Shown here in pieces: positions 23,576 to 45,194 of a stretch of DNA of 64,000 bases. Source of the stretch: Jiangella mangrovi (GTDB taxonomy: Bacteria > Actinomycetota > Actinomycetes > Jiangellales > Jiangellaceae); NCBI RefSeq assembly GCF_014204975.1, contig NZ_JACHMM010000001.1, positions 6,696,037 to 6,760,036 of the forward strand. The letters are read 5' to 3'. Numbering within the stretch: the stretch's first letter is position 1; each line of letters begins with the position of its first letter. Below the pieces are notes generated by a model. That model made no database searches. It was not told where the DNA came from and was given only the letters and a program-made list of their open reading frames with translations. The position numbers and the translations under genes were made by a program.

Positions 23576-24775
23576 TCAGACGCCGTGGCCGGCGATCGTG
23601 CGAAGCCGAGTCACGATGTCGGTCGTCAGCCGGTCGATCTGCGAACTGGAGAAGGTGTCTGAGCGGAATCGGCATTGCAGGTTGAGCCGGCCGCCGTACG
23701 TGTAGACGGAATAGCCCGGCGACACCGGCGGATAGACGTTGACCATGGTCCGAAAGTTGGCGATCTGCAGGCCCTCAGCGTTCGGAATCACGGCGAGTCG
23801 TCCGTAGTTGCTGACTCCTGTGTTCGCGAGTTGCTGACCCAGCCTGCTCTCGGTGTCCAATTCCAGCATGCCCGACATGTCCGCCGAAAGCTTCCTGGGA
23901 TCGGCCAGCGCCTCGTCGACCTGATCGGCTACCAGCTTGGCGACACGCATCATGTCGTCCGCACGGTCGACCTCGACGTCAGCTCTGTGCATCGTGACGA
24001 ACATGCTCGTTTCGGTCGCGCTGACCGGCGGAGACACCCGATCTCGGAGATCCACGGCGGCCCAGCAGAACATCCGGGCCGAGCCGTTGAGATCCTCCGC
24101 GAAGTCGCGCTGCGCCGTGAGCACTGACCCGCAGAGTATCGAGTGGACCGATAGACCGACCGATTTGGCTGTGTCGACCAATCCACTCGTCTCGGCCGCG
24201 GTCAGCCGGAGCAGCGGCTGCACGATTTCGCAACTGTCGACATGAATGGCAGCCGTGCTCACCTGTGGGCTGGGCGCGCGATTCGCGATCTGCAACCTCT
24301 GGGAGAGCAGGTCGAATGGCGGAGTCGGAAGCGGGACCGGCGCCGCCTGTACCGGCTTCCTGCCCGCCACGAGGTCGACGTAGGTTGACCAGACCTCGTA
24401 CATGATGGTGTTCAACGCCCGCCCGTCGACGACCGCGTGGGACATGCGCAGCGCCGTGATACCGCCGTCCGCGTCCGAACCGACGACCAGCCTGGCCAGC
24501 GCGACGGAGTTGTCCCAGCTACCCCAGAGGGCCGATTCGAACTGGTCGCGGCCGACTGAGACGAACTCCGGCTGCCCGCGTTCCCCGATCAGAACGTACC
24601 CTCGACGATCACGACTGATCGCTGCTCGCGTCGCGGCGTAGTGGCGGCACACGACGTCGAAAGCCTGCGCGTAGGCGCTCTCGTCGAGAACTCCTCGGTA
24701 CTCTGCGCCAAACGCTGGCGCATACCGGATCAGCCGGGCTTCCATGTCATCCAGATATCGCTGAGCCAACGACAC
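23576..24775 (-). CDS. Standalone condensation-domain acyltransferase (PapA-like)
   Basis: 399 residues of the condensation/Pap acyltransferase fold. MSHAVVDG near residue 110 corresponds to HHxxxDG with Ser in place of the first His, so the catalytic His and the structural DG remain. A later VSNYGRLAVIPNAEGLQ region resembles the DFGWG-side strand of PapA5-type enzymes. It would transfer an acyl group from CoA or carrier protein to an alcohol or amine. It is 30 bases after the SnoaL-like gene, probably one operon. Lower GC than the following sugar genes. Possible acceptor: a product of the sugar/acyl operon upstream. Confidence 0.75.
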   Translation of the reverse strand: MSLAQRYLDDMEARLIRYAPAFGAEYRGVLDESAYAQAFDVVCRHYAATRAAISRDRRGYVLIGERGQPEFVSVGRDQFESALWGSWDNSVALARLVVGSDADGGITALRMSHAVVDGRALNTIMYEVWSTYVDLVAGRKPVQAAPVPLPTPPFDLLSQRLQIANRAPSPQVSTAAIHVDSCEIVQPLLRLTAAETSGLVDTAKSVGLSVHSILCGSVLTAQRDFAEDLNGSARMFCWAAVDLRDRVSPPVSATETSMFVTMHRADVEVDRADDMMRVAKLVADQVDEALADPRKLSADMSGMLELDTESRLGQQLANTGVSNYGRLAVIPNAEGLQIANFRTMVNVYPPVSPGYSVYTYGGRLNLQCRFRSDTFSSSQIDRLTTDIVTRLRTIAGHGV

Positions 24776-24805: not shown

Positions 24806-25267
24806 TCAGTCGTTCTGGCTGTATGCGTCGGCCCACTCGGAGAGGTCCTGGATCTCTGTCGCGACAGAGATCCGGCCATCGGCGAAGTCGAGAACGAGTG
24901 CGATGTCCTTGCCCTTCGCGATCGCGCCGGTCTTCTTGATCGTGTAGGCGTACGACGTGAGGACGACCACGCGATCCCCGTTGCAGAAGTATTCGAGCGG
25001 CTTCTCGACGACGAGTCCCTCGATGAGGTCGGGGTCGTCCTCGAGGAACAGTTTCTTGATGGCGTCCTTGCCTCGGAACTCTCCTCCGAAGACCGGAGTG
25101 CCGGGCGGGCATGGCACCTTGAAAACGCCGTCCTCGGCGAACATGTCGATCAGAGGGTGGTAGTCGAGCGGCCGAGGCGGGGTGATCCCGGCCTGACCGT
25201 CCTGATACCGCGCCTCGAGATGTGAGCAAGCCTTGCGGGCAAGCCCCACGATGTCGTTCTCTGTCAC
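24806..25267 (-). CDS. SnoaL/NTF2-like protein
   Basis: 153 residues starting at GTG 25267, behind GAGGAGAG. HPLIDMFAEDGVFKVPCPPG, FRGKDAIKKLF and the final strand (ALVLDFADGRISVATEIQDL) fit the SnoaL-like NTF2 cone fold, which includes polyketide cyclases, ketosteroid isomerases and hydrolases. No catalytic set can be fixed from the sequence alone. First gene of a two-gene unit with the acyltransferase. Confidence 0.75.
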   Translation of the reverse strand: MTENDIVGLARKACSHLEARYQDGQAGITPPRPLDYHPLIDMFAEDGVFKVPCPPGTPVFGGEFRGKDAIKKLFLEDDPDLIEGLVVEKPLEYFCNGDRVVVLTSYAYTIKKTGAIAKGKDIALVLDFADGRISVATEIQDLSEWADAYSQND

Positions 25268-25466
25268 ATTCTCTCCTCGTCCGTCGCCAGATGTGCTCCG
25301 CGCCGGAGGCTCACCTCCGCACGGGTTCATACTTTCGCGATCGTGGACACGGCGCAGGGTGGCCGTTTTCGATGCGGTACGACCCCGCTGAGTCACACGA
25401 TTTGGCCGCAGCCCACAGCCGCGCGCCAGAATACAGCTGTTTTATCTAATGAAATCAGTGTCTTGA
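25268..25466. other. Intergenic region with weak dyad
   Basis: 199 bases between the SnoaL-like gene and the end of the sugar operon. CTGTTTT-ATCTAATG-AAATCAG (25437-25458) is an imperfect dyad, and TGAAAT-CAGT-GTCTTG (25450-25465) matches only one arm of the IclR-type site. I would not count it as a sure operator. Confidence 0.35.
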
Positions 25467-26669
25467 TTATGGATCGCCCAGTCGCGCATCGTCAAGGAAA
25501 TCGCCTGACGGTTGGGTCACGTCGGCGAAGCCCTTCACCGTGAGTGCGTCCACACTCACGATCTTGAGCACGGCCGCGATCCGCTCCGCCGCGTGGCCGT
25601 CGCCGAAGGGCGACACGGCGACGGCGGCTATGGCCTGATGCTCCGCCGACAGGGACTGTCTGATGGCGCCCTCGATCTCGGCTGCCGACTCGCCGCAGTC
25701 GATGACCGAGCCGGCCCGGGGTCGCCCGTCCTGCCGAGATCCGATGTTCACGGTCGCCGTCCGCAGGGCCGGCGCCTCGGCCAGGCCGCTCGACGAGTTC
25801 CCGATGACCACCGCAGCCTGGGCGACCAGGCTGAGGTAGGTCACCTGCCCCAGTGATGCTCGAGCCATGGCCCGACCGGGATGAGCGGACACGTAGTCGC
25901 GGATCGGCGCGAACACGCCGGCGCCGCCCTGGTCCACGTTGGTGCCCGTGAAGACGACCGTGGCCTCGGGTAACCGGTCCAGTGCCGCGAGCAGTCCCAG
26001 AACGCCGTCGCGGCTGCCCCTCGGGTCGGCGGTCGCCGGATGGTAGGTGACAGCGAACAGCGGCCCGGTCAGGTCGAGGCCGAGGGCCTCCGCCAGCTCG
26101 CCGCGGCCGAGCAGCGGCATGGTCCGGATCGTGTCCAGGCCGGGAGCGCCGAAGGCGTGGACGCGCGAGGGGTCCTCGCCGAGCTGGATCACCCGTTGCC
26201 GGAACTCCTCGTTCGAGGTGAAGTGCAGGTGAGCCAGCTTCGTGATCGCGTGCCGCACGGAGTCATCGGTCGAGCCGTACGAGAGCTCCCCGCCACCGAT
26301 GTGTGCGACCGGGAGCAGACGGAGCGCCGCGGCGACGGTGACGGCGAGCGCTTCGTAACGGTCGCCCAGAACCATCAGGATCTCCGGGCGGAGTCGTTCC
26401 AGCGCGTCCGCGTAGCCGATGACCCCGAGCCCGAACGACTTCGCCACGGCCGTCGCGGTATCGCTGGCCAGCACCATCTCGACCCGCTCAGAGACCGGGA
26501 AGCCGTCGGCCTCGATCTGGTCCACGGTCGTTCCCTGTGCCTCGACGAGATGGCCACCCGAGGCGAGGACGGCGAGCTCGATGTCCGGGTCCTTGTGCAG
26601 TGCCGCGATGACCGCGAGCAGAGGTCCGTAGTCGGCGCGCGACCCGGTGAATACACAGACGCGGCGCAT
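25467..26669 (-). CDS. UDP-N-acetylglucosamine 2-epimerase, hydrolysing (NeuC/LegG-like)
   Basis: 400 residues. MRRVCVFTGSRADYGPLLAV is the characteristic NeuC start. ILMVLGDRYEALAVTVAAAL, IGGGELSYGSTDDSVRHAIT (HAITKLAHLHFTSNE) and VIGNSSSGLAEAPAL are active-site segments of the GT-B-like fold. These enzymes cleave the nucleotide and invert C2 to give free ManNAc or, in LegG/PseG-like pathways, 2,4-diacetamido-2,4,6-trideoxy-hexoses. Placed after LegB/LegC/NeuD-like genes it should act last in this set. The expected next enzyme (LegI/NeuB synthase) is missing from the window. Confidence 0.9.
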   Translation of the reverse strand: MRRVCVFTGSRADYGPLLAVIAALHKDPDIELAVLASGGHLVEAQGTTVDQIEADGFPVSERVEMVLASDTATAVAKSFGLGVIGYADALERLRPEILMVLGDRYEALAVTVAAALRLLPVAHIGGGELSYGSTDDSVRHAITKLAHLHFTSNEEFRQRVIQLGEDPSRVHAFGAPGLDTIRTMPLLGRGELAEALGLDLTGPLFAVTYHPATADPRGSRDGVLGLLAALDRLPEATVVFTGTNVDQGGAGVFAPIRDYVSAHPGRAMARASLGQVTYLSLVAQAAVVIGNSSSGLAEAPALRTATVNIGSRQDGRPRAGSVIDCGESAAEIEGAIRQSLSAEHQAIAAVAVSPFGDGHAAERIAAVLKIVSVDALTVKGFADVTQPSGDFLDDARLGDP

Positions 26670-26672
26670 CGA

Positions 26673-27707
26673 TCACTCGCCGCCGGCCGGCAGGAAGTCC
26701 TGTGGCGCCGGTTCGAGAGCCGTGCGCAGCGTCCCGGCGAAGTCCCAGGCCGGCCGGTAACCGAGGACTCGTCGTGCCTTGTCGGTGGAGACCTCGAAGG
26801 AGAGTGTGACCGGCAGATGGACCGTCACCGTGTCGAGGTCGAACTCCTTGGCGACGACGGCGGCTGCCTCGGCGAAGGTCGTCGTGTGCGGGCCCACGAC
26901 ATTGAACGACTGGCCGGCCGCGGCGACGTGCTCGATGCCGAGCATGAGTCCCGACGCGACGTCGCGGACGTCGCTCAAGTGCAGCGCCCATGGCTCCCCA
27001 CCCGGGCCGGTCAGCGCCACGGCGGGGTCGTCCGGCCGGTCGCCGACGGCGTCGCGGACCATTGCACTGAGATCGGGCTGGTCCGCGAAGAGCTGGTAGA
27101 GATTGCCCCGGCGGCCGGCTTGGGCCTGCGCCCCGAGGAAGGCCGTGACCCACGACAGCCGGAACAGCGGGAGCACCTCGTGCGGCGCGACCACCGAACC
27201 GAGCCGCATGATCGTGTACTCCAGGCCGTACAACTCGTGGTGGTTGCGAACGAGCTGCTCCGCGAGCACCTTCGCCGTGCCGTAGTAGTCACCGGGCAGT
27301 TGCGGATGGTCTTCGGTGATCGGCAGGAATTGCGGTGCGGCCGGGCCATAGGTGTTGTCCGTGCTGGCGAAGACGAACCGGCGCACGGGCCGACTCGAGC
27401 CGGCGGCAGCCTCGAGCAGGCGCAGTGTTCCCAGCACGTTGACGTCGTGGAACCGGTCGGGCCTCGTGTCGCCGATGACCATCTGAGCGGCCAGGTGCAC
27501 GATGACGTCGGCACCGTCGGTCGCCCGTTCCAGGGCCGCCGCGTCGGTCAGGTCGGCTTCGAGGAGCTCGACGCGACCGGCGAGCAGCGGGTGCAACGAG
27601 CGGCCGCCGGGCCGGACGGTGCCGCGGACGTCGTAGCCGGCGCGCACCAGCCTGTGCGCGAGGGTCGATCCGACTCGGCCGGCGATCCCGGTGATGAGGA
27701 CGGTCAT
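26673..27707 (-). CDS. NAD-dependent epimerase/dehydratase (paralogue of 18.9-kb gene)
   Basis: 344 residues starting MTVLITGIAGRVGSTLAHRL. VIVHLAAQMVIGDTRPDRFH and DYYGTAKVLAEQLVRNHHEL (YxxxK) mark an extended SDR. Compared with 18873-19880, both share the unusual TEDxPQ-P-DYYGT-K block and the NTYGPAAP/GTYRPGAP turn. It is 3 bases before the NeuC-like gene and 19 bases after LegC-like, so it belongs to the sugar operon. The reaction (epimerase, dehydratase or ketoreductase) cannot be told from the motifs. Confidence 0.88.
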   Translation of the reverse strand: MTVLITGIAGRVGSTLAHRLVRAGYDVRGTVRPGGRSLHPLLAGRVELLEADLTDAAALERATDGADVIVHLAAQMVIGDTRPDRFHDVNVLGTLRLLEAAAGSSRPVRRFVFASTDNTYGPAAPQFLPITEDHPQLPGDYYGTAKVLAEQLVRNHHELYGLEYTIMRLGSVVAPHEVLPLFRLSWVTAFLGAQAQAGRRGNLYQLFADQPDLSAMVRDAVGDRPDDPAVALTGPGGEPWALHLSDVRDVASGLMLGIEHVAAAGQSFNVVGPHTTTFAEAAAVVAKEFDLDTVTVHLPVTLSFEVSTDKARRVLGYRPAWDFAGTLRTALEPAPQDFLPAGGE

Positions 27708-27726
27708 CGAAGCAGCCTTTCTGGCG

Positions 27727-28860
27727 TCAGTTGGCGGACAGTGCCGAGATGAGGGCCGCGACGACGGTGTCCTGGTCGCGCTCGGAGAGGTGCGCGGAGC
27801 TGGGCAGGGACAGGCCGCGACGGTACAGGTCGTCCGCCACCTCGCCGCCGATCCGGTCCGCGGCGCGGTAGGGGCGCTGGTCGTGCAGGGGTGGCCAGAG
27901 CCGCCGGGCCTGGACACCGTCGGCGGCGAGGACGGCGACGATCTTCTCCGGATCGAGGCCGGGGTCGTCGAGGAGGACGGAGTAGAGCCAGAATGTCGAG
28001 TCGGCCCAGGAAGCGGCCGGCGGGGCGGCCACAGGGGCGGACCGCAGCGCGTCGCGGTACCGGGCGGCCACCGCGCGCTTCGCGGCCACCTTCGCCGGCA
28101 GCTGCTCGAGCTGGGCGGTGGCGACGGCGGCGGCGATGTTGGTGAGCCGGTAGTTGTAGCCGACGTCGTCGTGGCGGTAGTGCTCGCCGTCGACCTTGGC
28201 CTGGGTGGTGAGGTGGGCCGCGGCGGCAGCGCGGTCGCCGTCGGCGGTGACGATCATCCCGCCGCCACCCGCGGTGATGATCTTGTTGCCGTTGAATGAG
28301 AAGCACCCGAGGTCGCCCGCCGTGCCGACCTGGTGCCCGGCCAGCTGACCGGCCGTCCACGAGGCGCCGAGCGACTCGGCCGCGTCCTCGACGATGTCGA
28401 TCCAGAACCGGTCGCGCAGGTCGAACAGCGGCTCCATGCGCGCGGGGTGGCCCAGGACATGGACCACCTCGACGACGTCGGGGATCGGCCGGCCGAGGCG
28501 GGCCCGGCGCAGCACCTCGTCGTGCAGCAGCTCGGTGTCCATGTTCCAGGTCTGCGGCTCGCTGTCGACCAGCAGCAGGTCGGCACCGGTGTAGTGGGCG
28601 GCGTTCGCCGACGCGATGAACGTGAAGTCCGAGACCGCCACCATGGCGCCCGGCCCGGCGCCGGCGATGCGGAGGGCGACGTGCAGGGCGGCGGTCCCGC
28701 TGGCGCAGGCGACGGCGTTCGGGCTGCCGACGGCGGCGGCGAACTCGCGCTCGAACCGGCCGACGAACGGCCCGGCCGACGAGACGAAGCCGGTGTCGAC
28801 GCACTCGCGCAGGTAGCGCGCCTCGTTGCCGCCCAGGGACGGCTCCGCGAGCGGGATCAT
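27727..28860 (-). CDS. DegT/DnrJ/EryC1 sugar aminotransferase (LegC-like)
   Basis: 377 residues starting MIPLAEPSLGGNEARYLREC. VACASGTAALHVALRIAGAG binds the PLP phosphate, DIVEDAAESLGAS the pyridine nitrogen, and CFSFNGNKIITAGGGGMIVT carries the Schiff-base lysine. GYNYRLTNIAAAVATAQLEQ is the family signature. It should aminate C4 of the 4-keto-6-deoxy sugar made by the LegB-like enzyme, with glutamate as donor. It overlaps that gene by ATGA (28857-28860). Confidence 0.92.
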   Translation of the reverse strand: MIPLAEPSLGGNEARYLRECVDTGFVSSAGPFVGRFEREFAAAVGSPNAVACASGTAALHVALRIAGAGPGAMVAVSDFTFIASANAAHYTGADLLLVDSEPQTWNMDTELLHDEVLRRARLGRPIPDVVEVVHVLGHPARMEPLFDLRDRFWIDIVEDAAESLGASWTAGQLAGHQVGTAGDLGCFSFNGNKIITAGGGGMIVTADGDRAAAAAHLTTQAKVDGEHYRHDDVGYNYRLTNIAAAVATAQLEQLPAKVAAKRAVAARYRDALRSAPVAAPPAASWADSTFWLYSVLLDDPGLDPEKIVAVLAADGVQARRLWPPLHDQRPYRAADRIGGEVADDLYRRGLSLPSSAHLSERDQDTVVAALISALSAN

Positions 28861-29855
28861 CGCTGGTACCTCGCCGCCCGCTCGACGTCGACGCGCGGCG
28901 CCAGCCAGGCGGCGGTCGCCGCGAGCCCGTCGCGCAGGGACCAGCCGGCCTGCCAGCCGAGCTGCTCCTTGGCCCGACTCGGCTCGGACAGCAGCAGCTG
29001 CACCTCGCTGGCCTCGGGCCGCACTCGCTCCGGGTCGGTGACGGCGACGGCGTCGACCCCGGTGACCGCGCAGCACAGCTCGAACAGCTCGCCGATCGAG
29101 ACCGACTGGCCGGTGCCCAGCTGCACCAGCGATCCGGGCGCCAGGTCGGACAGCGCCATGCGCACGAACCCGTCGACGGTGTCGCTGACGAAGGTCAGGT
29201 CGCGCCGAGGTGCAAGGCTGCCGAGCCGGACCTCGGTCGCGCCGGCGAGGAGCTGGCCGAGGATCGTCGGGATGACGGCGCGCGCGGACTGCCGCGGCCC
29301 GTAGGTGTTGAACGGCCGCAGCACGAGCACGTCGACACCGAACGAGCGCGCGTAGGCCTGGCAGAGCTGGTCGGCGGCGATCTTCGAGGCGGCGTACGGC
29401 GACTGGCCGCACAGCGGGTGCGTCTCGGTGATCGGCACCGACTCCGGCGTGCCGTAGACCTCGCTGGTCGACGTGCTGACCATGCGCACGTGCCCGGCGT
29501 CGCGGACGGCCTCGAGCACGTTGAGGGTTCCGGTGATGTTGGTGTCGACGAACGACTCCGGCGCCTGGTAGCTGTACGGAATCGCGACCAGCGCGGCCAG
29601 GTGGAACACGAGGTCGACGTCGCGCACCGCCTGGCGCACCGAGCGGGCGTCGCGGATGTCGCCCAGCTGCAGGTTCATCGCCGCCAGCTGGTCGCTGCCG
29701 AGCTCGTCCAACCAGCCGTAGGAGCCGTTGGAGTTGTAGACGCAGAAGGCACTGACGGAGGCCGCCTCACGCAGCAGCCGCTCGGTCAGATGGCTGCCGA
29801 TGAAGCCGTCGGCCCCGGTCACCAGTACCCGCCGGCCGGCCAGCCCGCCCGTCAT
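28857..29855 (-). CDS. Nucleotide-sugar 4,6-dehydratase (LegB-like)
   Basis: 332 residues. RRVLVTGADGFIGSHLTERL (NAD site), NSNGSYGWLDELG after the second strand (typical of LegB-type GDP/UDP-GlcNAc 4,6-dehydratases), STSEVYGTPESVPITETHPL, then SPYAASKIAADQLC (YxxxK). It makes the 4-keto-6-deoxy intermediate for aminotransfer. LegB-type enzymes often take GDP-GlcNAc, for which the guanylyltransferase PtmE supplies the nucleotide sugar. A PtmE-like gene lies at 43.9 kb. Confidence 0.9.
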   Translation of the reverse strand: MTGGLAGRRVLVTGADGFIGSHLTERLLREAASVSAFCVYNSNGSYGWLDELGSDQLAAMNLQLGDIRDARSVRQAVRDVDLVFHLAALVAIPYSYQAPESFVDTNITGTLNVLEAVRDAGHVRMVSTSTSEVYGTPESVPITETHPLCGQSPYAASKIAADQLCQAYARSFGVDVLVLRPFNTYGPRQSARAVIPTILGQLLAGATEVRLGSLAPRRDLTFVSDTVDGFVRMALSDLAPGSLVQLGTGQSVSIGELFELCCAVTGVDAVAVTDPERVRPEASEVQLLLSEPSRAKEQLGWQAGWSLRDGLAATAAWLAPRVDVERAARYQR

Positions 29856-30499
29856 GCGGTGATCCGGCCGCGCCGCAGCCGCGTCTCCTTCGCCGGGATC
29901 CCGACGACGACTGCGCCGGCGGGGACGTCCTTGGTGACGACGGCGCCGGCCCCGACCACGGCACGGTCCCCGACCACGACGTCGCCGAGCACGATGCAGC
30001 CGATGCCGAGCATGACGTCGTCGCCGATGACGGCCCGGGCGCCGACGGAGGCGCCGCCGGCCAGGAGCACGTGGTCACCGATGCGGGAGTCGTGCCCGGC
30101 GAACGTGTTGACCTCCATCATCACGTGCTGCCCCACCTGCGCGCCGGCGACGACGTGCGCCGTCTCGAAGATCAGCGAGCCGGCGCCGACGCTGGTGTGC
30201 AGGCCGATCCAGGCCGCCGAGTGGACGAGGGTCGCGGGCTCGCGCCCGTGCGCGTCGGCCATCGCGGCCAGCCGGCGCCGCGCGGTGGGCAGCCCGACGC
30301 CGATGACGTAGTGGGCGTCGAGCCCGGCCAGCTGGTCGTCGCCGCCGAGCACCGGCACACCCCAGACGTCGGGCTCGTCGACGCCGTCGTCGAGGAAGCC
30401 CAGCAGCTTGTACGCGGAGGTCTGCTGCTCCACGTCCTGGGCGAGGCCGATGATCTGACGGCCGAGGCCGCCGGATCCGAGTATCACCAGTGGGCGCAC
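29852..30499 (-). CDS. Left-handed beta-helix sugar N-acyltransferase (NeuD/PglD-like)
   Basis: 215 residues. The N-terminal Rossmann-like part (VILGSGGLGRQIIGLAQDVE) binds the nucleotide sugar. Hexapeptide repeats from about residue 90 include FAGHDSRIGDHVLLAGGASV, where the histidine is the probable base. It ends DVPAGAVVVGIPAKE. It should transfer an acyl group from CoA to the C4 amine made by LegC-like. The acyl-CoA-building genes just upstream in the same operon raise the possibility that the acyl donor is not acetyl-CoA. Confidence 0.9.
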   Translation of the reverse strand: MRPLVILGSGGLGRQIIGLAQDVEQQTSAYKLLGFLDDGVDEPDVWGVPVLGGDDQLAGLDAHYVIGVGLPTARRRLAAMADAHGREPATLVHSAAWIGLHTSVGAGSLIFETAHVVAGAQVGQHVMMEVNTFAGHDSRIGDHVLLAGGASVGARAVIGDDVMLGIGCIVLGDVVVGDRAVVGAGAVVTKDVPAGAVVVGIPAKETRLRRGRITA

Positions 30500-30583
30500 G
30501 CGAGTCGTCCTTCCGCAGCCGATTGCTCTCTGACCAGCGCTGTCGATTCTGGTTCGCCGCGCCCGCCCGGGGCAGGGGGCGCG

Positions 30584-31033
30584 TTACGGCCCGGCCGGCC
30601 CATCCGGGCCGGCCGGACCGGCCGGCCAGGCCACCGTGACGTGGCCCGGCGCGCACAGCTCGCCGTCCTGGCGCCGTTCCTCCAGCCGCAGCTCGGCGAC
30701 GCGCTCTCCCGGCGCGTCCCGCACCTCGACCACCTCGCCGGTGACGATCAGCTCGTCGCCGGCGACGGCGATGCCGCGGTTCTGCCAGCCGAACGAGCGG
30801 AGCGTGACCCCCGGCCCGGCCCAGGCCAGGACGGCGTTCAGCAGGACACAGCCGTGCAGGTGCGACTGCACGAGCACGTCCGGGTAGCCCTCCGACCGCG
30901 CGTACTCCGCGTCGTAGTGGATGCGGTGCGCGTTCCACGTCACCGCGCTGAACCGGAACAGCCGCACGGTGCTGGTGCGCAGGCGGTACGGCGGCAGCGT
31001 CACACCGGCGACGACCTCGGTCAGGACGGTCAT
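30584..31033 (-). CDS. MaoC-fold dehydratase (C-half type)
   Basis: 149 residues with FSAVTWNAHRIHYDAEYARS, where D/N-x-H is the hydratase-2 motif, and VLVQSHLHGCVLLNAVLAWA. A (R)-hydroxyacyl thioester dehydratase subunit of the hot-dog fold. Paired with the next gene upstream (overlap 31030-31033) as in heterodimeric HadAB-type dehydratases. A Pro/Gly/Ala repeat (GPAGPDGPAGP) ends the protein. 84 bases then separate it from the NeuD-like gene. Confidence 0.85.
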   Translation of the reverse strand: MTVLTEVVAGVTLPPYRLRTSTVRLFRFSAVTWNAHRIHYDAEYARSEGYPDVLVQSHLHGCVLLNAVLAWAGPGVTLRSFGWQNRGIAVAGDELIVTGEVVEVRDAPGERVAELRLEERRQDGELCAPGHVTVAWPAGPAGPDGPAGP

Positions 31034-31506
31034 CGCGCCACGAACGTCTCGTCGCAGGTCACCAATGGCCGGCCGGCGCCGTCGGCGAACTCGCGGCGCA
31101 CGTGGAGCAGCAGCAGGTCGCCGGTCCGTCCGCTCTTGTGGCGCACGCTCAGGAGCGTCGTCGTCTCGACGACGCGGTCGCCGGCGCGGGCCGGGTGGTG
31201 GAACTGCAGCTCCTGGCCGGCGCCCATGAGCCGCAGCCCTTCCAGCGGCAGGCCGCGGGTCTCGTCGGTGCCGGAGCCGTCGGGCCGCAGCTCGGACTCG
31301 GGCGGGCCGGGCGACCAGCCCATGACCGAGCTGAGGTACAACGGCGGCGCCTGCCCGTCCGGCAACGCCGGCGCGCCCGCCACCAACGCGAAACGCTCCA
31401 GGTCGCGGACCGCCAGCACGCCGAGGTCGCGCCGCCGCGTCACGCCGGTCTCGGCGGCCAGCCGCCGCTCCGCCGCGACGAGGACGCCGGTGTCGCCGTC
31501 ACCCAC
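31030..31506 (-). CDS. MaoC-like N-terminal-domain dehydratase subunit
   Basis: 158 residues starting at GTG 31506. LYLSSVMGWSPGPPESELRP, then RLMGAGQELQFHHPARAGDR and VVETTTLLSVRHKSGRTGDL match FAS1-type/MaoC_dehydrat_N hot-dog domains that lack the catalytic His and complement a catalytic partner. It overlaps the acyl-CoA dehydrogenase gene by 8 bases and the partner MaoC gene by 4. Confidence 0.82.
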   Translation of the reverse strand: MGDGDTGVLVAAERRLAAETGVTRRRDLGVLAVRDLERFALVAGAPALPDGQAPPLYLSSVMGWSPGPPESELRPDGSGTDETRGLPLEGLRLMGAGQELQFHHPARAGDRVVETTTLLSVRHKSGRTGDLLLLHVRREFADGAGRPLVTCDETFVAR

Positions 31507-32644
31507 GAGCGGCCGTGCCCAGCAGCTCGCGGGCGATCATCCAGCGCTGGATCTCGCTGGTCCCGTGGCCGATCCGCCACACCCGGACCTGGCGGTAGAA
31601 GCTCTGGATCGGCAGCTCGCGCGTGTAGCCGAGGCCGCCGAGGATCTGCAGGCACCGGTCGGTGACGCGCTGCGCCATCTCGGTGGCGTAGAGCTTGGCC
31701 ATGTACGCCTCGCTGGTGATCGTGCGGCCCTCGTCGGCCAGCCAGGCGGCGCGGTGGACGAGCAGCCGGGCCGCCTCGAGCTCGGTCACGGAGTCGGCCA
31801 GCATCCACTGCACCGCCTGCCGCGACGCGATCGGCTTGCCCCAGGTGGTGCGCTCCTTCGCCCACTCGACGGCGATGTCGATGCAGCGCTGCGCGATGCC
31901 CAGCTGGAACGCGGCGATCTTCAGCCGGCCGTGGGTGAGCTGCTCGGTCGCCAGCGCCCAGCCGGCGCCCACGTCGCCGAGCCGGTTCTCGTCGGGCACC
32001 ACGCAGTTCTCGAAGGACAGCTCGTGCGGGTCCCAGTCGTCGCCCATGGTGGGGATCGGCCGCGACCGGGTCAGGCCCGGGTTGTCCATGTCGACGAGGA
32101 AGCAGGTGACCCCGCGCGAGCCCAGCTCCGGGTCGACGGTGGCGAACAGGATCACGAAGTCGGCGCTCTCGGCGTAGGAGATGAACGTCTTCGTGCCGTT
32201 GATCAGCCAGGTGTCACCGTCGCGCACGGCGCGGGTGCGGACGGCCGCGACGTCGGACCCGCCGCCCGGCTCGGTGAACGCGTAACAGCAGCGCAGGTCC
32301 TCCTTGATGATCGGATAGAGGTAGCGGTGCCGTTGCTCCTCGGTGCAGGCGTACAGCACCGGCTCGGGGCTGCCGCCGAACTCGAACATGGCGGGGTGCT
32401 GGAACAGCTCCTCCCCCACCAGGCAGGCGCCCAGCGTGCCGATGCCCTGGCCGCCGAGCTCCTCGGGAACGTCCAGCGCCCACAGCCCCTGCCGCCGGGC
32501 CCGGTGCTCCAGCTCCGTCCGCAGCTCCGCGGGGAACCGCCCCTCGAGCAGGAAGTCGCGTTCCAGCGGCATCAGCTCGCGCTCGCGGAACCGGCGGACG
32601 ATGTCGACGAAGTCACGCAGGTCGTCGGGGATGGTGAAGTCCAT
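31499..32644 (-). CDS. Acyl-CoA dehydrogenase
   Basis: 381 residues. CCYAFTEPGGGSDVAAVRTR and TWLINGTKTFISYAESADF are FAD/substrate signatures. QAVQWMLADSVTELEAARLL and LQILGGLGYTRELPIQSFYR are C-terminal signatures, and VWRIGHGTSEIQRWMIAREL holds the region of the catalytic base. Oxidises an acyl thioester to the 2,3-enoyl form. The start ATG overlaps the stop of the ThDP enzyme (TGATG at 32644). Confidence 0.92.
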   Translation of the reverse strand: MDFTIPDDLRDFVDIVRRFRERELMPLERDFLLEGRFPAELRTELEHRARRQGLWALDVPEELGGQGIGTLGACLVGEELFQHPAMFEFGGSPEPVLYACTEEQRHRYLYPIIKEDLRCCYAFTEPGGGSDVAAVRTRAVRDGDTWLINGTKTFISYAESADFVILFATVDPELGSRGVTCFLVDMDNPGLTRSRPIPTMGDDWDPHELSFENCVVPDENRLGDVGAGWALATEQLTHGRLKIAAFQLGIAQRCIDIAVEWAKERTTWGKPIASRQAVQWMLADSVTELEAARLLVHRAAWLADEGRTITSEAYMAKLYATEMAQRVTDRCLQILGGLGYTRELPIQSFYRQVRVWRIGHGTSEIQRWMIARELLGTAARG

Positions 32645-35031
32645 CAGCGCAACCGCCAGCTCTTCCGTGAGGTGGGCATGATGTCGTCGCCCTCGTTGTC
32701 GTGGGCGAGGTAGACGGAGAACAGGTTGATCGACGACGGCGTCAGCAGCCGGTCGGCGAGGTGGCCCGGATCGACGGTCACCAGCCGCTCGTGCGTCACC
32801 GTCGTGCCGGCCCAGGTCTCCCGCCACGGCGGCTCCACCGGCGTCAGCAACGACATCTGGGCGTCCGCGGTGGCCGCGTGCTGCAGCTCGCGGTTCGACC
32901 GGATGATGGAGAACCCGCCGTTGAGCAGGAAGAAGATGCTGATGTTGCCGTCGACGCGGCCATGCTCGTGGCGCAGCTGCTGGGCCAGGCTCGGAAGCGA
33001 CGACGGCACCAGCCGCGCGGCGCCGTCGCCGATGAAGCCCAGCACGTTGCCCGGCCGGGTCAGCGCGATCGACGGGATCGCCTGCAGCGCGTCGCCCATG
33101 AGCGCGCGCCCGTACCAGCCGGAGAACCCCGGGCCGGTGCGGGCGAGATTGCGGATCGCCGAGATGCCGCCGCGGCCGACGTCGTAGAAGCCGGTGTACT
33201 CGTAGCCGTGGCCGGTGATCAGGCCGCGGAGGACGCCGTCGAGCGCGGTGAAGAAGTGCTCGTGGCTCATCGGCACCGACGGGACCGCGGCGAGCGGGTC
33301 GCCGGTGGCCCGCCGCGCCCGGGCGATCGCCTCGCGCCGCGAGCGCAGCACCCACTCGCCCGGCGCGACGCGGGGCGCGAGCCGGCGCAGGAACGACGAC
33401 AGCTGCTCGACCACGGGCAGGTCGGTGAACGGGGCGACGTGCGCGGGCGTGTCAGTGACCTGCACGATCCGGCAGTCCTGGTAGAGCGTCTTCTCCGGGA
33501 ACGGCGTCGCGAGGTCGGTGATGCGGCTCTTGAGGAAGAACAGCGCGTGGTCGCCGTGGCCCAGCCGTCGCCCGCCGGGGTGCAGCAGGCTCCACACCTG
33601 CGGCGAGCACCCGTAGATGCTCATGGTGCCGACGAACTCCTCGACCTCGCGCCCCTGGTGGTAGCGGGCGACGGTGCCCGGCCGGCCGAGCGAGTCGACC
33701 AGCGCGACGCCGGCCCGGTGGGCGAGGTCGTAGACCAGCTCCCGCTCGTCCTCGGTCAGGTTGCCGCACTGCCAGAGGACCGGTCCCGGCTCCTCGTTCA
33801 GGATGCGGGCGACGGCGTCGACGGTGTCCTCGTCGGCCTGCGGGTGCGCGGCGGCGACGGTGACCTTGGGGACGTCGAGCGGGCCGGTCATCCGCAGGAC
33901 CGACGGGGCGGTCAGCAGGACCACCGGTCCGCTGCGTCGGTGGTAGGCCCGGAACGCCGCGGCCAGCTCCTCGGCCAGCCGCTCCGGCTCGGTCAGGTAG
34001 AAGCAGGGCAGACCGCGGGCGGCGAACACGGCCCGCGCGTCCTCGTCGTCGTGGACGGTGCCCTGGAACGGCTGCCAGCCGCCCGGCGCCGTCTCGCCGA
34101 AGACGATGAACCCGCGCGCCTGCGAGTCGCGCAGGTTGGCCAGGGTGCCCTTGAGCTCGTCGACCATCCCGGCCGTCGCGACCAGCAGGAACGGCGCCTG
34201 GTCGAGCTGCCAGCGGGCCAGCGCGCCGCACGCGAGGCTGTGCTCGTTGGGGCCGCGCAGGACGGGGTTGCCGGCCTGCTGGGCGATCGTCGTGGCGTCC
34301 TGGATCAGCTTGGCCGGCAGGGTGCCGGTGAAGAAGTGCAGCGCCCAGCGCGGGCCGGACTGCTCGGTGAGGAAGTCGGTGAGCGCCAGCGCCAGCGACC
34401 CGGCCGGCTCGGTGTCCGGCAGCAGCGCACGCCGGTTGACGTGGCGCGCCTGGACGAGGTCGGTGAACGCCGTCAGCACCTCGGCGGCCAGCACCCAGTC
34501 GTCGTCGGGCAGCCGGCGCGAGGTGCACACCGTCCGCGAGTAGACCTGGTCCTCGTCCAGCTCGTCATAGACGACGACGGAGTACGGCGAGACCCCGATG
34601 CCCAGGTGCTGGCGCAGCTTCGCCAGCGTCTCGACGACGGTGTCCAGCCGGTCGCCGACCTCCTCGCCCGGCACCGCCGTCGTGGCGTCGACCAGCAGCA
34701 GCACCGTCGGTGCGGCGGTCCAGGGGCGCGGACCCTCGCCCGGTTCCGTGGCCTGCGCGGGTAGCACCTGGCGCAGCCGGTCCTCGACCAGGCTGAGCCG
34801 GGCCACCTCGACCAGCTCCACCCGGGCGTCGGGCAGGGCCTCGTCCAGGTAGGCGTTCGCCCGGCTCGCCAGCGCCTGAGCCGGCTCGGGCCAGGCCGTC
34901 GGGAAGACGTCCTTGTCCAGCGCACCGGCGAACCAGCGGCTCGGCCCGGCCAGCTGGCCCAGCGCCGCCGCGGCGGTGGCGTGGAAGGCCGGGCTGCTGC
35001 TGACGATCGCGACGTACAGCTCCTGCGTCAT
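32644..35031 (-). CDS. Thiamine-diphosphate-dependent enzyme with extra N-terminal domain
   Basis: 795 residues, longer than usual (about 550-600) for the acetolactate-synthase/decarboxylase family. The first ~200 residues are an unfamiliar domain. Then come a TPP-binding N part (about 230-400: LRGPNEHSLACGALARWQLD with an active-site glutamate candidate, then FLLVATAGMVDELKGTLANL), a central part (GPVLWQCGNLTEDERELVYD) and a C part (LGFIGDGAARLVPSSLPSLA, NISIFFLLNGGFSIIRSNRE) that keeps the GDG-N metal/ThDP motif. It probably does decarboxylation or carboligation on a 2-oxoacid, feeding the KAS III/dehydrogenase/dehydratase set. Confidence 0.8.
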   Translation of the reverse strand: MTQELYVAIVSSSPAFHATAAAALGQLAGPSRWFAGALDKDVFPTAWPEPAQALASRANAYLDEALPDARVELVEVARLSLVEDRLRQVLPAQATEPGEGPRPWTAAPTVLLLVDATTAVPGEEVGDRLDTVVETLAKLRQHLGIGVSPYSVVVYDELDEDQVYSRTVCTSRRLPDDDWVLAAEVLTAFTDLVQARHVNRRALLPDTEPAGSLALALTDFLTEQSGPRWALHFFTGTLPAKLIQDATTIAQQAGNPVLRGPNEHSLACGALARWQLDQAPFLLVATAGMVDELKGTLANLRDSQARGFIVFGETAPGGWQPFQGTVHDDEDARAVFAARGLPCFYLTEPERLAEELAAAFRAYHRRSGPVVLLTAPSVLRMTGPLDVPKVTVAAAHPQADEDTVDAVARILNEEPGPVLWQCGNLTEDERELVYDLAHRAGVALVDSLGRPGTVARYHQGREVEEFVGTMSIYGCSPQVWSLLHPGGRRLGHGDHALFFLKSRITDLATPFPEKTLYQDCRIVQVTDTPAHVAPFTDLPVVEQLSSFLRRLAPRVAPGEWVLRSRREAIARARRATGDPLAAVPSVPMSHEHFFTALDGVLRGLITGHGYEYTGFYDVGRGGISAIRNLARTGPGFSGWYGRALMGDALQAIPSIALTRPGNVLGFIGDGAARLVPSSLPSLAQQLRHEHGRVDGNISIFFLLNGGFSIIRSNRELQHAATADAQMSLLTPVEPPWRETWAGTTVTHERLVTVDPGHLADRLLTPSSINLFSVYLAHDNEGDDIMPTSRKSWRLR

Positions 35032-35933
35032 CGCGCGCTCCTCTCGCCGTAGTCGTGGAAGCCGCGGCCGGTCTTCCGGCCCAGCAGGCCGGCGTCGACC
35101 ATGCGCCGCAGCAGCGGCGGCGGCGAGTAGTGGGGCTCGCGGAACTCGTGGTGCAGCGACTCCCCGATGGCGCTGACGACGTCCAGGCCCACGAAGTCGG
35201 CCAGCGCCAGCGGGCCCATCGGGTGGTTGCAGCCCAGCACCATGGCCGTGTCGATGTCGGCCGCGGACGCGAAGCCGGACTCCAGCATGCGGATCGACGA
35301 CATCAGGTACGGGAACAGCAGCGCGTTGACGATGAACCCGGACCGGTCGCGGACCCGCACCACCTGCTTGTCCAGCACGCCGGTCAGGAACGACTCCACC
35401 CGCTCGGTGCAGCCGCGGTCGGTCAGCAGCGACTCGACCACCTCGACCAGCGGCATCCGCGTCGCCGGGTTGAAGAAGTGCGCGCCCAGCACCCGGTCCG
35501 GCCGGTGGGTCACGCACCCGAGCTTCATCACCGGGATCGACGACGTGTTCGACGCCAGCACGGCGTCCGGGCTCTCGACGACCTTGTCGAGGGTCGCGAA
35601 GATCTGCGTCTTCGTCTCCTCGTCCTCGGGAGCGGCCTCGAACACCAGCTCGCGGTCGGCGAGTTCGCTGAGGTCCGCCGTCAGCACGACGCGGTGCCGG
35701 GCCTGCTCTGCCTCGTCCCTCGTCAGCGTGCCGCGCTGGACGGCCCGCGCGAAGGCGCCGTCGAGGCTGCGCCGGCGCGGCTCGACCGACTCCGGCTGGC
35801 TCACCGCGACGACGACGTCCAGCCCGGCGGTGGAGCAGGTCTCGGCGATCCCGCGGCCCATCACGCCGCACCCGACGACACCGACCCTGGTGATGGGGGC
35901 TGCGGTGATGGGGGCCGTGCTCGAGGCCGTCAT
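35028..35933 (-). CDS. 3-hydroxyacyl-CoA dehydrogenase
   Basis: 301 residues. After a short repetitive leader (two copies of ITAAPIT-like sequence) comes TRVGVVGCGVMGRGIAETCS, the NAD site. Then LASNTSSIPVMKLGCVTHRP, VLGAHFFNPATRMPLVEVVE (catalytic H and E), FIVNALLFPYLMSSIRMLES and NHPMGPLALADFVGLDV. Closest to FadB2/3-hydroxybutyryl-CoA dehydrogenases. It overlaps both neighbours by 4 bases. It would reduce the ketoacyl product of the KAS III gene to the hydroxyacyl form. Confidence 0.93.
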   Translation of the reverse strand: MTASSTAPITAAPITRVGVVGCGVMGRGIAETCSTAGLDVVVAVSQPESVEPRRRSLDGAFARAVQRGTLTRDEAEQARHRVVLTADLSELADRELVFEAAPEDEETKTQIFATLDKVVESPDAVLASNTSSIPVMKLGCVTHRPDRVLGAHFFNPATRMPLVEVVESLLTDRGCTERVESFLTGVLDKQVVRVRDRSGFIVNALLFPYLMSSIRMLESGFASAADIDTAMVLGCNHPMGPLALADFVGLDVVSAIGESLHHEFREPHYSPPPLLRRMVDAGLLGRKTGRGFHDYGERSAR

Positions 35934-36928
35934 GCCGACCACCGCAGCAGGCAGGTGCCGATGGCCATGCCGCCGCCGAAGCCCGCCAGCAGCACCAGGT
36001 CGCCGTCGGCGATCCGGCCGGCCCGGCTGGCCTCGTCGAGCGCCACCGGGATGCAGGCGCTGCCGACGTTGCCGTAGCGCTCGAGCGTGCGGTGGGTCCG
36101 TGCGCCGTCCAGGCCGGACTTCGCCACCAGGTCGTCCAGCAGGTTGCCGTTCGGCTGGTGCGGCACGAAGTGGTCGACGAGGGCGCGCTCGACCCCGGCG
36201 CCGGTCAGTAGCGCGTCGATCGCGGGCGGGACCTCGTCGAGCACGAAGTCGCTCACCGCGTGGCCGTCCATCGCGAACCAGTGCTGGCCGGCCGCGACGG
36301 TGGCGCTCGACGCCGGCAGCCGGCTGCCGCCCGCAGGGACTCTGATCAGCTGGTGCGCGTCGCCGCGCGTGTGCAGGCCGACGCCCAGCACCCCGCGACC
36401 GTCCGGCACGCCGCCCACGACGGCCGCCCCGGCGCCATCGGCGAACAGCACCGCCGTCCTCCGATCCCCGACGTCGAGGATCCGCGAGTACACGTCGGCG
36501 CCGATCACCAGAGCGCGGGCACCCGGGTGGGCGGCGAGCAGCCCGCGGGCCACCGCGAGCGCGTACACGAAGCCGCTGCACACGGCGTTGAGGTCGAAGC
36601 AGGCCGCACCGCGGGCGCCGAGCAGGTCCTGCACCAAGGCCGCCGTCGGCGGCTGCGGCGAATCCGGCGTCGACGTCGCGACCAGCAGGTAGTCGAGCTG
36701 CGCGGCGTCGACGCCGGCGTCTTCGAGGGCGTTCCGCCCGGCCTCCGCCGCCAGATCCGACGTGGCCTGCTCCGGCGCCGCATACCGGCGCGTCCGGATC
36801 TGCGTCTTCTTCTCGATCCACTCCGGCGTGACGCCCGCCAGGGCCGCCACCTCGGCGTTCGGGACCTCGCGAGCGGGTAGGCAGGACCCGGTTCCGAGGA
36901 TCCCCACGGGCTGTGGTGTCGCGGCCAC
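35930..36928 (-). CDS. 3-oxoacyl-ACP synthase III (FabH-like)
   Basis: 332 residues starting MAATPQPVGILGTGSCLPAR. The triad is visible: Cys in FDLNAVCSGFVYAL, His in FVPHQPNGNLLDDL and Asn in YGNVGSACIPVALDEA. IEKKTQIRTRRYAAPEQATS is the usual FabH dimer segment. As first gene of the eleven-gene operon it probably begins a short acyl chain used by later genes, not housekeeping fatty acid synthesis, since no fabD/acpP genes are next to it. Confidence 0.92.
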   Translation of the reverse strand: MAATPQPVGILGTGSCLPAREVPNAEVAALAGVTPEWIEKKTQIRTRRYAAPEQATSDLAAEAGRNALEDAGVDAAQLDYLLVATSTPDSPQPPTAALVQDLLGARGAACFDLNAVCSGFVYALAVARGLLAAHPGARALVIGADVYSRILDVGDRRTAVLFADGAGAAVVGGVPDGRGVLGVGLHTRGDAHQLIRVPAGGSRLPASSATVAAGQHWFAMDGHAVSDFVLDEVPPAIDALLTGAGVERALVDHFVPHQPNGNLLDDLVAKSGLDGARTHRTLERYGNVGSACIPVALDEASRAGRIADGDLVLLAGFGGGMAIGTCLLRWSA

Positions 36929-36985: not shown

Positions 36986-38392
36986 TCAATCAGCAGAGGA
37001 CGACTTCAGGCGGGGTCGCTCATGCTCGGATCGGACGAACGCGATCACGAGCGCCGCGGCGGTCAACGCCATCACTGCGAGGGTCATGAAGACGCGGTCG
37101 AATCGTCCGAGGAGCTCGGTCGCCTCGCCCGACCCAACGCGGAAGGTTCCGAGCGCGGTCGCGGAGAGCAAGGCGAGCCAGAACCCCGCGCCAATCTGCT
37201 GGGATGCACTGATGAGTCCCGACGCGAATCCCAGGTCGCTTTCGTGTGAGGTTCGCGTTGCCAGGGACGTCAGGCAGACGAAGGCGCCTCCCATCCCAAC
37301 GAACGTGGGGACCAGTGCAGGGAGCGCCTCCGTCAGGTAGGACTGCTCTTCGCCGAGCCGGGTGAAGAGCACTGACCCGGCGAAGACGAGTACACAGGCT
37401 GCGCAGAGGATGCGCTTCGTACTCGTCCGGCCCGACAAGGACCTCGCAGTCATCGAACCGATCACCACGGCCACCGAGACCGGCAGGAACAGGAATGCTG
37501 TCACCAGCGTGGAGGCCGCATGTATCTCCTGGTAGTACAGCGTCAGGAGATACATGGCCACCGCCGGACAGCCGACGACGATGAACATGGCCGTGTTCGC
37601 GATCGCCAAGTTGCGCACACGAAGTGCGCCCAGCGGTATGAGCGGGTGGGCCGAGCGGCGCTGCAGGCCTACGAACAGGAGCAGCAGCACCGCTCCGGCT
37701 ACTGTTGCCGAAAGGGCCACCGCTGCCTGGCCACGGTCAGTTCGCACGGTCGACACCCCGAGCACGAACGCGAGCAGTCCGATCGTTAGGGTCACCGCTC
37801 CCGCGACGTCGAATGATTCCGAATGATCGACATCATCGCGACGGACGAACCTTGCGAGAGCAATTGACACGACGGCGAGCACCACGTTCGCGGCGAAGAT
37901 CGCTCGCCACGCCAGGACCTCGGTCAAGAGGCCGCCCGAGAGAAGACCCACGCTGCCCGAGCAGGCTCCTATGGTGGCCCAGATCGCCATCGCGTGCTCG
38001 CGCCGCGGGCCTTCGCCATAGATCACTGCGAGCATTGCAAGGCCGGTCGGAACCACCAGCCCGGCGGCAACACCTTGCGCAGCCCGACCGGCGTACAGGA
38101 CCCCCGGCCACCAGGCGACGGCGCACAGAAGCGATGACGCTCCGAAGACTCCGATCCCCATCAACAGCACGCGGCGCTGACCGAGTCGGTCGGCGAGGCG
38201 GCCCCCTGTGAGTAGGAGCGCGCCGAACGGCACGTTGTACGCATTCAGCACCCAGGCGAGGTCTGTCGTCTGCATGCTCCAGGTGGTCCCTATGTCGGGA
38301 AGTGCCACGATGACAGTCGTCGCGTTGGCGAGCACGGTGCCCGCGGCGACGCATATCCCGATCAACGCAAGGGCTTCCCTTGCCTTGGGCAT
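36986..38392 (-). CDS. MFS drug/metabolite exporter, DHA2 (14-helix) type
   Basis: 468 residues, strongly hydrophobic. VIVALPDIGTTWSMQTTDLA and WVLNAYNVPFGALLLTGGRL form the DHA2 motif region, and GGRLADRLGQRRVLLMGIGV is motif A. VVPTGLAMLAVIYGEGPRRE precedes the motif-C glycine-rich helix. A proton-driven efflux pump, probably for a small hydrophobic compound. GC is visibly lower than in the sugar operon downstream, as for the next genes up to about 40 kb. It is divergent from the HMG-CoA-lyase-like gene. Confidence 0.9.
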   Translation of the reverse strand: MPKAREALALIGICVAAGTVLANATTVIVALPDIGTTWSMQTTDLAWVLNAYNVPFGALLLTGGRLADRLGQRRVLLMGIGVFGASSLLCAVAWWPGVLYAGRAAQGVAAGLVVPTGLAMLAVIYGEGPRREHAMAIWATIGACSGSVGLLSGGLLTEVLAWRAIFAANVVLAVVSIALARFVRRDDVDHSESFDVAGAVTLTIGLLAFVLGVSTVRTDRGQAAVALSATVAGAVLLLLFVGLQRRSAHPLIPLGALRVRNLAIANTAMFIVVGCPAVAMYLLTLYYQEIHAASTLVTAFLFLPVSVAVVIGSMTARSLSGRTSTKRILCAACVLVFAGSVLFTRLGEEQSYLTEALPALVPTFVGMGGAFVCLTSLATRTSHESDLGFASGLISASQQIGAGFWLALLSATALGTFRVGSGEATELLGRFDRVFMTLAVMALTAAALVIAFVRSEHERPRLKSSSAD

Positions 38393-40008: not shown

Positions 40009-40017
40009 CGTTCTCCT

Positions 40018-44939: not shown

Positions 44940-45194
44940 GTCGCACACTCCTGGTCGCATTGCTGAGGTCAGCGTGACGGCGACACCCGAGATCGGGCAG
45001 GGGGCGAGTTTCCGGTCATACGCACGTCTCTGACCAGGTGAAACACCAACGTCAATCCGTGAACCGACGTTATTCGCATTCTGGACAGCCTTCGTCGCAA
45101 AGTGCACCGGCGAGGCGGCGAAAATCGCCGTAGCCTCCGATCAGAAGCCCCACGCAACCCCGGAGCAGGGCTTTCGAAAGAGGTGCTTGCGAAG
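44940..45194. promoter_or_regulatory. Divergent intergenic region with inverted repeat
   Basis: 255 bases between the PtmE-like gene and the XRE/NTase gene. AACGTC (45048-45053), 12 bases, GACGTT (45066-45071) is a perfect dyad near the middle and could be an operator for either gene. I see no clear promoter hexamers. Confidence 0.4.

Follow-up and report, generated by a model that had tools for sequence, protein, structure and literature searches.

A 64,000-nucleotide stretch of the Jiangella mangrovi genome (contig NZ_JACHMM010000001.1, positions 6,696,037 to 6,760,036; hereafter, the window) carries eleven minus-strand genes, running from 36928 to 25467, in which an acyl block is followed by a sugar block (Table 1). 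The acyl block encodes a KAS III enzyme, a 3-hydroxybutyryl-CoA dehydrogenase (HBD), a thiamine diphosphate (ThDP) enzyme related to PigD, an acyl-CoA dehydrogenase (ACAD) and two MaoC-type proteins, and the sugar block encodes NeuD-, LegB- and LegC-like proteins, an extended short-chain dehydrogenase/reductase (SDR) and a NeuC-like protein. A first-pass annotation had described this cluster, together with an 84-base gap ahead of NeuD, and both were confirmed. It had also reported overlaps of 1-8 bases within the acyl block. These occur from HBD through MaoC2 (HBD/PigD-like, 4 bases; PigD-like/ACAD, 1; ACAD/MaoC1, 8; MaoC1/MaoC2, 4), but KAS III and HBD overlap by 13 bases with a GTG start at 35942, or by 4 with an ATG nine bases further in. 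In the sugar block, NeuD/LegB and LegB/LegC each overlap by 4 bases, and gaps of 19 and 3 bases follow LegC and the SDR gene, respectively. The 84 bases that part the two blocks held no promoter- or terminator-like match in a crude consensus scan, and the corresponding gap measured 79-95 bases (from gene ends) in four other Jiangella with both blocks. Gene spacing leaves no room for an acyl carrier protein (ACP) gene inside the cluster; the search for one did not extend to the rest of the genome. We predict that the eleven genes form one operon. The gene caller relied on base composition only and may miss or truncate short or atypical genes; tblastn rows were used alongside it, with an OppC query containing a stop retained in the comparison of loci.

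The operon's conservation, which the annotation had named as a check, holds for a seven-gene core: PigD-ACAD-MaoC1-MaoC2-NeuD-LegB-LegC was contiguous in 5/5 Jiangella with PigD. The strict eleven-gene order without inserts was found only in the window's own genome among these five; J. ureilytica has two genes inserted between HBD and PigD, and three of the five carry an additional SDR gene after LegC.

Table 1. Features of the window discussed in the text, with the eleven operon genes listed first in order of transcription.
Feature	Coordinates	Strand	Family evidence and remarks
KAS III (acetoacetyl-CoA synthase-like), first builder gene	35930..36928	-	PF08545/PF08541; NF006829 314 bits, cut-off 249
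3-hydroxybutyryl-CoA dehydrogenase (HBD)	35028..35942	-	NF005875 419.1 bits, cut-off 319
PigD-like ThDP enzyme	32644..35031	-	NCBIfam NF053552 (PigD) 648.8 bits over residues 142-792
Acyl-CoA dehydrogenase (ACAD)	31499..32644	-	PF00441/PF02770/PF02771
MaoC1, hot-dog subunit	31030..31506	-	PF13452; catalytic motif absent from sequence
MaoC2, hot-dog subunit	30584..31033	-	N-x-H-R-I/V-H-Y-D motif; PF13452 only 20.7 bits, cut-off 22
NeuD/PglD/VioB-type N-acyltransferase, proposed adaptor	29852..30499	-	TIGR03570; PglD_N + hexapeptide fold; catalytic His
LegB-like NDP-sugar 4,6-dehydratase	28857..29855	-	TIGR04180 413.5, cut-off 475
LegC-like 4-aminotransferase	27727..28860	-	TIGR04181 363.1, cut-off 420; nearest PDB perosamine synthetase 3bn1
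Extended SDR (epimerase/dehydrogenase family)	26673..27707	-	PF01370; near full-length match 4id9
NeuC/LegG-type hydrolysing 2-epimerase	25467..26669	-	TIGR03568 400.0, cut-off 235.9
SnoaL-like protein	24806..25396	-	PF12680; same strand, after NeuC; possibly own promoter
PapA_C-type acyltransferase, rival user of acyl group	23576..24775	-	PF16911; after SnoaL-like gene
MFS transporter, possible exporter	36986..38392	-	PF07690; 57 bases upstream of KAS III
CBS-domain nucleotidyltransferase, proposed NDP-sugar supplier	43878..45107	-	PF00571 + PF00483
Second extended SDR, linked with sugar block	18873..19880	+	1e-40 matches in same 7/12 Jiangella as NeuC
Fused 2-oxoacid dehydrogenase E1 alpha/beta + acyl-CoA ligase, possible acyl accessories	7807..11345	-	PF00676/PF02779/PF02780, PF00501

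The annotation's family calls held on profile scans, and its ThDP gene could be specified further as PigD-like. The Pfam scan gave no family for this protein, and a sequence search for a solved PigD relative returned only weak acetolactate synthase matches; in a predicted structure of moderate confidence (predicted local distance difference test, pLDDT, 72.2), residues 209-795 match acetolactate-synthase folds. The ThDP glutamate (Glu263) and the GDG669-671..N704 motif are kept, and the protein is 94% identical to its J. ureilytica counterpart and 91% to that of J. aurantiaca. Of 98 confirmed matches, 80 were kept, giving 79 distinct loci; the neighbourhood comparison covered 84 PigD loci, 9 of the window's clade and 75 others. 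This clade comprises proteins of Jiangella, Amycolatopsis, Prauserella-type and Trinickia genomes, and its 10 rows, including the window, occupied one side of a branch with a Shimodaira-Hasegawa-like approximate likelihood ratio (SH-aLRT) of 100 in a quick-method tree of 85 rows that drew warnings of long branches and odd letter composition in many rows. A PigE-like gene was near 0/9 of the clade loci versus 66/75 of the other PigD loci, and, at the thresholds used, builder genes were near 8/9 versus 0/75, the exception being Trinickia. Since the branch is monophyletic, PigE is absent and builder genes lie nearby, we regard these proteins as a separate clade of PigD-like enzymes that has partner genes of its own. 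Membership in PigD proper was rejected, as neither the NF053552 cut-off nor the PigE partner was matched. PigD transfers the acetyl group of pyruvate onto an enoyl thioester (PMC7065143), and the PigD-like enzyme is predicted to add pyruvate's acetyl to an enoyl-CoA.

Catalytic residues are intact in most of the other builder enzymes. The Cys-His-Asn triad of KAS III is present in the readable alignment rows (the A. jejuensis sequence is split across two pieces), and HBD, a member of a CoA-type family, keeps its His/Asn. The MaoC2 motif was found in 9/9 rows, and the nearest PDB entries to MaoC2 are itaconyl-CoA hydratase (8khg/8huc; E 6.6e-10, over 72 residues), then ChsH2/ChsH1. Since MaoC2 keeps the motif and MaoC1 is without it, the two proteins are likely one heteromeric hydratase. 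A pseudomonad itaconate/methylsuccinate cluster, as far as the available passages of its report describe it, offers a parallel: it pairs an ACAD with an itaconyl-CoA hydratase, the enzyme that MaoC2 resembles, and acts on beta-methyl branched acyl-CoAs, its dehydrogenase converting methylsuccinyl-C4-CoA to mesaconyl-C4-CoA; however, it is catabolic, and those passages mention no PigD, KAS III or amino-sugar genes (PMC12290011). PigD chemistry on crotonyl-CoA would give 3-methyl-4-oxopentanoyl-CoA, which corresponds to methylsuccinyl-CoA as its methyl-ketone analogue, and therefore such a dehydrogenase/hydratase pair would fit it. Just upstream of the operon, at 38580-40860, we also observed genes like those of 3-hydroxy-3-methylglutaryl-CoA lyase, mesaconyl-CoA hydratase and the citrate lyase beta subunit.

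The LegB, LegC, NeuD/LegH and LegG/NeuC steps of the legionaminic pathway are all represented in the sugar block, with NeuD and NeuC scoring above their cut-offs. NeuC matched LegG-type structures (5zlr/5xvs) with 310.9 bits versus 181.8 for UDP-N-acetylglucosamine 2-epimerase/N-acetylmannosamine kinase; LegG is a GDP/UDP-diacetylbacillosamine 2-epimerase, the substrate of which is a diacylated sugar. LegB is ~54% identical to two plasmid genes annotated LegB, and in the plasmid searches the relatives of LegB and ACAD were all below 60%. The CBS-domain nucleotidyltransferase, which we take to be PtmE-like in name and activity, had a strong match in exactly the 7/12 Jiangella that have NeuC, at 3-35 kb from it; the J. 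gansuensis match (G002:C1:3938117-3939199) holds one TGA. The second SDR lies on a separate contig in J. asiatica. A search of 11 genomes for NeuB (PF03102) gave only 22.7-26.9 bits in the seven sugar-block Jiangella, at a family cut-off of 22.1. The window genome's own match (24.4 bits) is a 3-deoxy-D-arabino-heptulosonate 7-phosphate (DAHP) synthase (PF00793, 259.8 bits); the other six were not scanned for identity. The sole strong match (279.5 bits) was in the Prauserella marina-type genome G561, at 0.19 Mb, far from that genome's cluster at 5.03-5.06 Mb. Since a NeuB-type synthase was not found in the seven sugar-block Jiangella, a nonulosonic acid, of the kind that the annotation had noted in cell-wall polymers of some actinomycetes, is an unlikely product, and the pathway should therefore end at the free diamino-trideoxymannose.

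The candidate for the gene that joins the two blocks is NeuD, which has the TIGR03570 score, the PglD_N/hexapeptide fold and the catalytic His of its family, and the fold of which is closest to A. baumannii VioB. Among 296 genomes searched, full-length PigD was found in 5/12 Jiangella (six others had weak partial matches of 19.5-24.6 bits), and a close NeuD (79-100%) was present in the same five. Two Jiangella, G008 and G009, have LegB, LegC and NeuC, and both PigD and a close NeuD are absent. G008 has a NeuD fold-mate of 30-32% identity beside NeuC, and the sugar block of G009 is accompanied by a phosphoesterase and a PylC-like ATP-grasp gene (L116 10580-12238); the fold-mate or the ATP-grasp protein could acylate the amine there. 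G561 has both blocks, in the order PtmE-KASIII-HBD-PigD-NeuD-LegB-LegC with ACAD and MaoC1/2 ~6 kb off, and its close NeuD is 56% identical. Matches in the Trinickia genome were of only 24-27% and lay elsewhere. Close NeuD was thus present in 6/6 genomes with both modules, 0/3 builder-only Amycolatopsis and 0/2 sugar-only Jiangella; the plain 2x2 chance of the PigD/NeuD pattern within Jiangella is 1/792, a figure that ignores kinship. Since close NeuD is confined to genomes with both modules, it behaves as expected of an adaptor, and the NeuD-like enzyme appears to be the best candidate for joining acyl and sugar. To this extent the earlier proposal that the acyl block feeds NeuD was supported; because the ThDP enzyme is PigD-like, however, a branched oxo-acyl is more likely than the plain 3-hydroxy or unsaturated short acyl that it envisaged.

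From these genes we infer the following reactions, their order and the acyl group. KAS III and HBD would produce 3-hydroxybutyryl-CoA, the dehydration of which would give crotonyl-CoA, and the PigD-like enzyme would join the acetyl of pyruvate to the beta carbon of crotonyl-CoA, forming 3-methyl-4-oxopentanoyl-CoA. ACAD and the MaoC1/MaoC2 hydratase might then yield 3-hydroxy-3-methyl-4-oxopentanoyl-CoA; 3-methyl-4-oxopentanoyl-CoA or a dehydrogenated or hydrated derivative is the best prediction for the acyl group. LegB and LegC would meanwhile produce a nucleoside diphosphate (NDP)-4-amino-4,6-dideoxyhexosamine, NeuD would place the acyl group on its 4-amine, and NeuC would free the N-acylated sugar; as no NeuB was found, the pathway would halt short of a nonulosonic acid. 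The expected product is probably an N-acylated 2,4-diamino-2,4,6-trideoxymannose, an undescribed sugar compound. That the operon makes such an N-acylated diamino sugar, with NeuD transferring the built acyl, is the best reading of the locus and has, in our judgement, a slightly better than even chance of being correct.

Several observations weigh against this reading. HBD-type enzymes usually give (S)-3-hydroxyacyl-CoA and MaoC-type enzymes usually use the (R)-form; given this opposite stereochemistry, the product of HBD may not be a substrate for dehydration by MaoC. ACAD carries a His (RIGHGTSEIQ) where the catalytic Glu of YEGT normally stands (alignment to 1ukw and a short-chain acyl-CoA dehydrogenase), and this His is present in 10/10 readable builder rows, the window included; the J. 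gansuensis row is unreadable there, as its piece ends. The PigD-like protein falls below the NF053552 cut-off of 950 bits, and LegB and LegC, although their best matches are to those families, are below theirs. KAS III lies away from the operon in two of the five Jiangella (J. asiatica and J. gansuensis), the Trinickia PigD locus is without nearby builder genes, and the builder lacks the amino-sugar block in the three builder-bearing Amycolatopsis, where neither NeuC nor NeuD was found at 1e-10. The nearest solved relatives of NeuD are acetyltransferases, and the co-occurrence counts come from few, related genomes.

The builder outside Jiangella bears on what the acyl group may be attached to. 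In 390 genomes of the family of Amycolatopsis, a PigD-like gene was found at 1e-100 in six, four of which belong to the window's clade. The builder loci of A. jejuensis, A. acididurans and the AA4-type Amycolatopsis keep company with E1 alpha/beta genes, a lipoyl-type protein and a 3-dehydroquinate (DHQ)-synthase-family (sugar-phosphate-cyclase-type) gene, the last of these some 10 kb off in A. acididurans. In keeping with a supply of malonyl-CoA, a carboxyltransferase and a biotinyl-type protein lie beside KAS III in the AA4-type genome and A. jejuensis. The builder appears to be a cassette that serves more than one acceptor, and therefore a competing explanation stays alive, namely that NeuD is a plain acetyltransferase, as its nearest structures are, and that the built acyl is attached elsewhere, e.g., to a hydroxyl by a PapA-type enzyme, so that one natural product would carry two decorations. 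The window has a PapA_C gene, PapA-like stretches (27-33%) occur in 3/4 other builder Jiangella loci and 2/3 Amycolatopsis, and PapA-like genes lie between HBD and PigD in J. ureilytica and at the builders of A. acididurans and A. jejuensis, loci that have no NeuD. However, the stretches from J. gansuensis, the Prauserella-type genome and the AA4-type genome showed no PapA-like gene, the six genomes with both blocks all have NeuD immediately after builder genes, and close NeuD is missing from 2/2 PigD-less sugar-block Jiangella, although a plain Leg-type sugar also needs an acetyltransferase. We regard this explanation as possible rather than probable.

It is quite unlikely that the acyl-CoA genes are catabolic, degrading a branched oxo-acyl by means of the ligase, dehydrogenase, hydratase and acetoin-dehydrogenase-like E1, with the sugar genes adjoining them for re-use of an imported compound. 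In G561, ACAD, ligase, MaoC1/2, E1 alpha/beta and lipoyl-type genes do form a one-strand row; an oligopeptide-type ATP-binding cassette (ABC) transporter, an IclR regulator, an SMP-30/gluconolactonase and an AstE/AspA-type deacylase surround the window's operon; and the PigD of the betaproteobacterium Trinickia terrae (L018 10001-12373), in an otherwise actinobacterial clade, has neighbours that, judged by eye, resemble genes of sugar catabolism. Nevertheless, KAS III, PigD, LegB, LegC and the nucleotidyltransferase are biosynthetic families, and the carboxyltransferase and biotinyl-type genes by KAS III in two Amycolatopsis speak for synthesis as well. Chance adjacency of two blocks that work apart in a variable region is very improbable. 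Each block is found alone in relatives (sugar in two Jiangella, builder in three Amycolatopsis), and the annotation's reading of a single functional unit is to that degree weakened; yet genes overlap by four bases within blocks, five species keep the gene order, and the blocks are joined again, in a different arrangement, in another bacterial order. A cell-wall nonulosonic acid with NeuB encoded elsewhere would account for the joint presence of LegB, LegC, NeuD and a LegG-type NeuC, but is largely refuted by the NeuB searches described above, in which 7/7 sugar-block Jiangella gave only marginal matches and the single strong one lay remote from its cluster.

The annotation had considered the join of these functions to be new. 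In kind it is not, since an acyl builder beside amino-sugar genes is already present in the viosamine island of Pseudomonas syringae (vioA, vioM, vioT, vioS, vioB, vioR, acp), the pathway of which its authors call putative (PMC3927599). In the parts of that paper available, the island likewise sets KAS III, a reductase and a VioB-named (NeuD-family) acyltransferase beside a sugar 4-aminotransferase, and a 4-amino sugar receives a 3-hydroxybutyryl-type acyl. It differs in having an ACP gene within the cluster, and none of its seven genes is described there as PigD-type, dehydrogenase or hydratase; the sugar is dTDP-viosamine, which ends on flagellin, and no LegB, NeuC or CBS-nucleotidyltransferase is mentioned. 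The Jiangella reductase, HBD, belongs to another family than the island's. The PigD/PigE route to the 2-methyl-3-amylpyrrole of prodigiosin (PMC7065143) shares a related ThDP enzyme with kept cofactor residues, but the present clade has no PigE-like gene in 9/9 loci and CoA-type builder genes in 8/9. The legionaminic acid pathway consists of LegB, LegC, LegH, LegG, LegI and LegF (PMC6137143); LegB-, LegC-, NeuD/LegH- and LegG-like steps and a nearby CBS-nucleotidyltransferase have counterparts here, whereas LegI (NeuB) was not found in the Jiangella genomes searched. Titles and abstract openings of open-licence literature on 3-methyl-4-oxopentanoyl sugars, PigD homologues, Jiangella and NeuC/LegB clusters yielded nothing describing the present cluster, nor PigD-type acyl chemistry combined with an amino sugar, and such literature on hydroxybutyryl nonulosonic acids gave no direct source for the annotation's remark on actinomycete cell walls.

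These results locate a PigD-like C-C-bonding enzyme beyond the biosynthesis of prodiginines, in a clade that is monophyletic and has conserved partners of its own, and suggest a testable substrate pair for it, crotonyl-CoA and pyruvate. One acyltransferase may join an acyl-building cassette to a truncated legionaminic pathway, and, if NeuD accepts the built acyl, new N-acylated diamino sugars would become accessible through the operon. Undescribed products are indicated in Jiangella, Prauserella and Amycolatopsis. The surrounding transporter, lactonase, deacylase and regulator genes possibly permit a make-and-reclaim reading. A broader and rather doubtful proposal is a new class of free amino-sugar metabolites, in which 2,4-diamino-2,4,6-trideoxymannose would bear a C6 branched oxo-acyl from a PigD-type Stetter enzyme and be made, and possibly re-imported and degraded, by one ~45-kb locus (oligopeptide-type transporter, deacylase, lactonase, ligase, E1), and other actinomycetes would use the builder, as a portable cassette, with cyclitols instead (sugar-phosphate-cyclase-type genes in Amycolatopsis).

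E1/ligase homologues adjoin MaoC1/2 in the Prauserella-type genome and two Amycolatopsis, with E1 alone in A. acididurans; close E1 was found in the five builder Jiangella and in G001, and in neither G008 nor G009. G008 retains the otherwise conserved flank without ligase and E1, which speaks for an E1-builder partnership. A strict partnership of the fused E1 alpha/beta with the builder is weakened, since Jiangella G001 (L147), the genome of which lacks PigD, this NeuC and both blocks, retains aminotransferase, RidA, MlrC, ligase and fused E1 of the left flank at 83-88%. The major facilitator superfamily (MFS) gene was rejected as a constant operon part, as none was seen beside KAS III in other Jiangella loci. 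Three protein searches, each scoring 8000 candidates, listed the best 120 of 266, 2181 and 7077 matches. A promoter-like site lies at 25495-25466, ahead of the SnoaL-like gene, two such sites having been found versus a chance level of 0.5 per scan. On the plus strand, the window also encodes a beta-eliminating lyase (tryptophanase/tyrosine phenol-lyase type; 48691-50124) and a B12-binding radical S-adenosylmethionine (SAM) enzyme (50530-52173); in A. jejuensis and the AA4-type Amycolatopsis, 71-76% homologues of these two lie near the builder with PigD.

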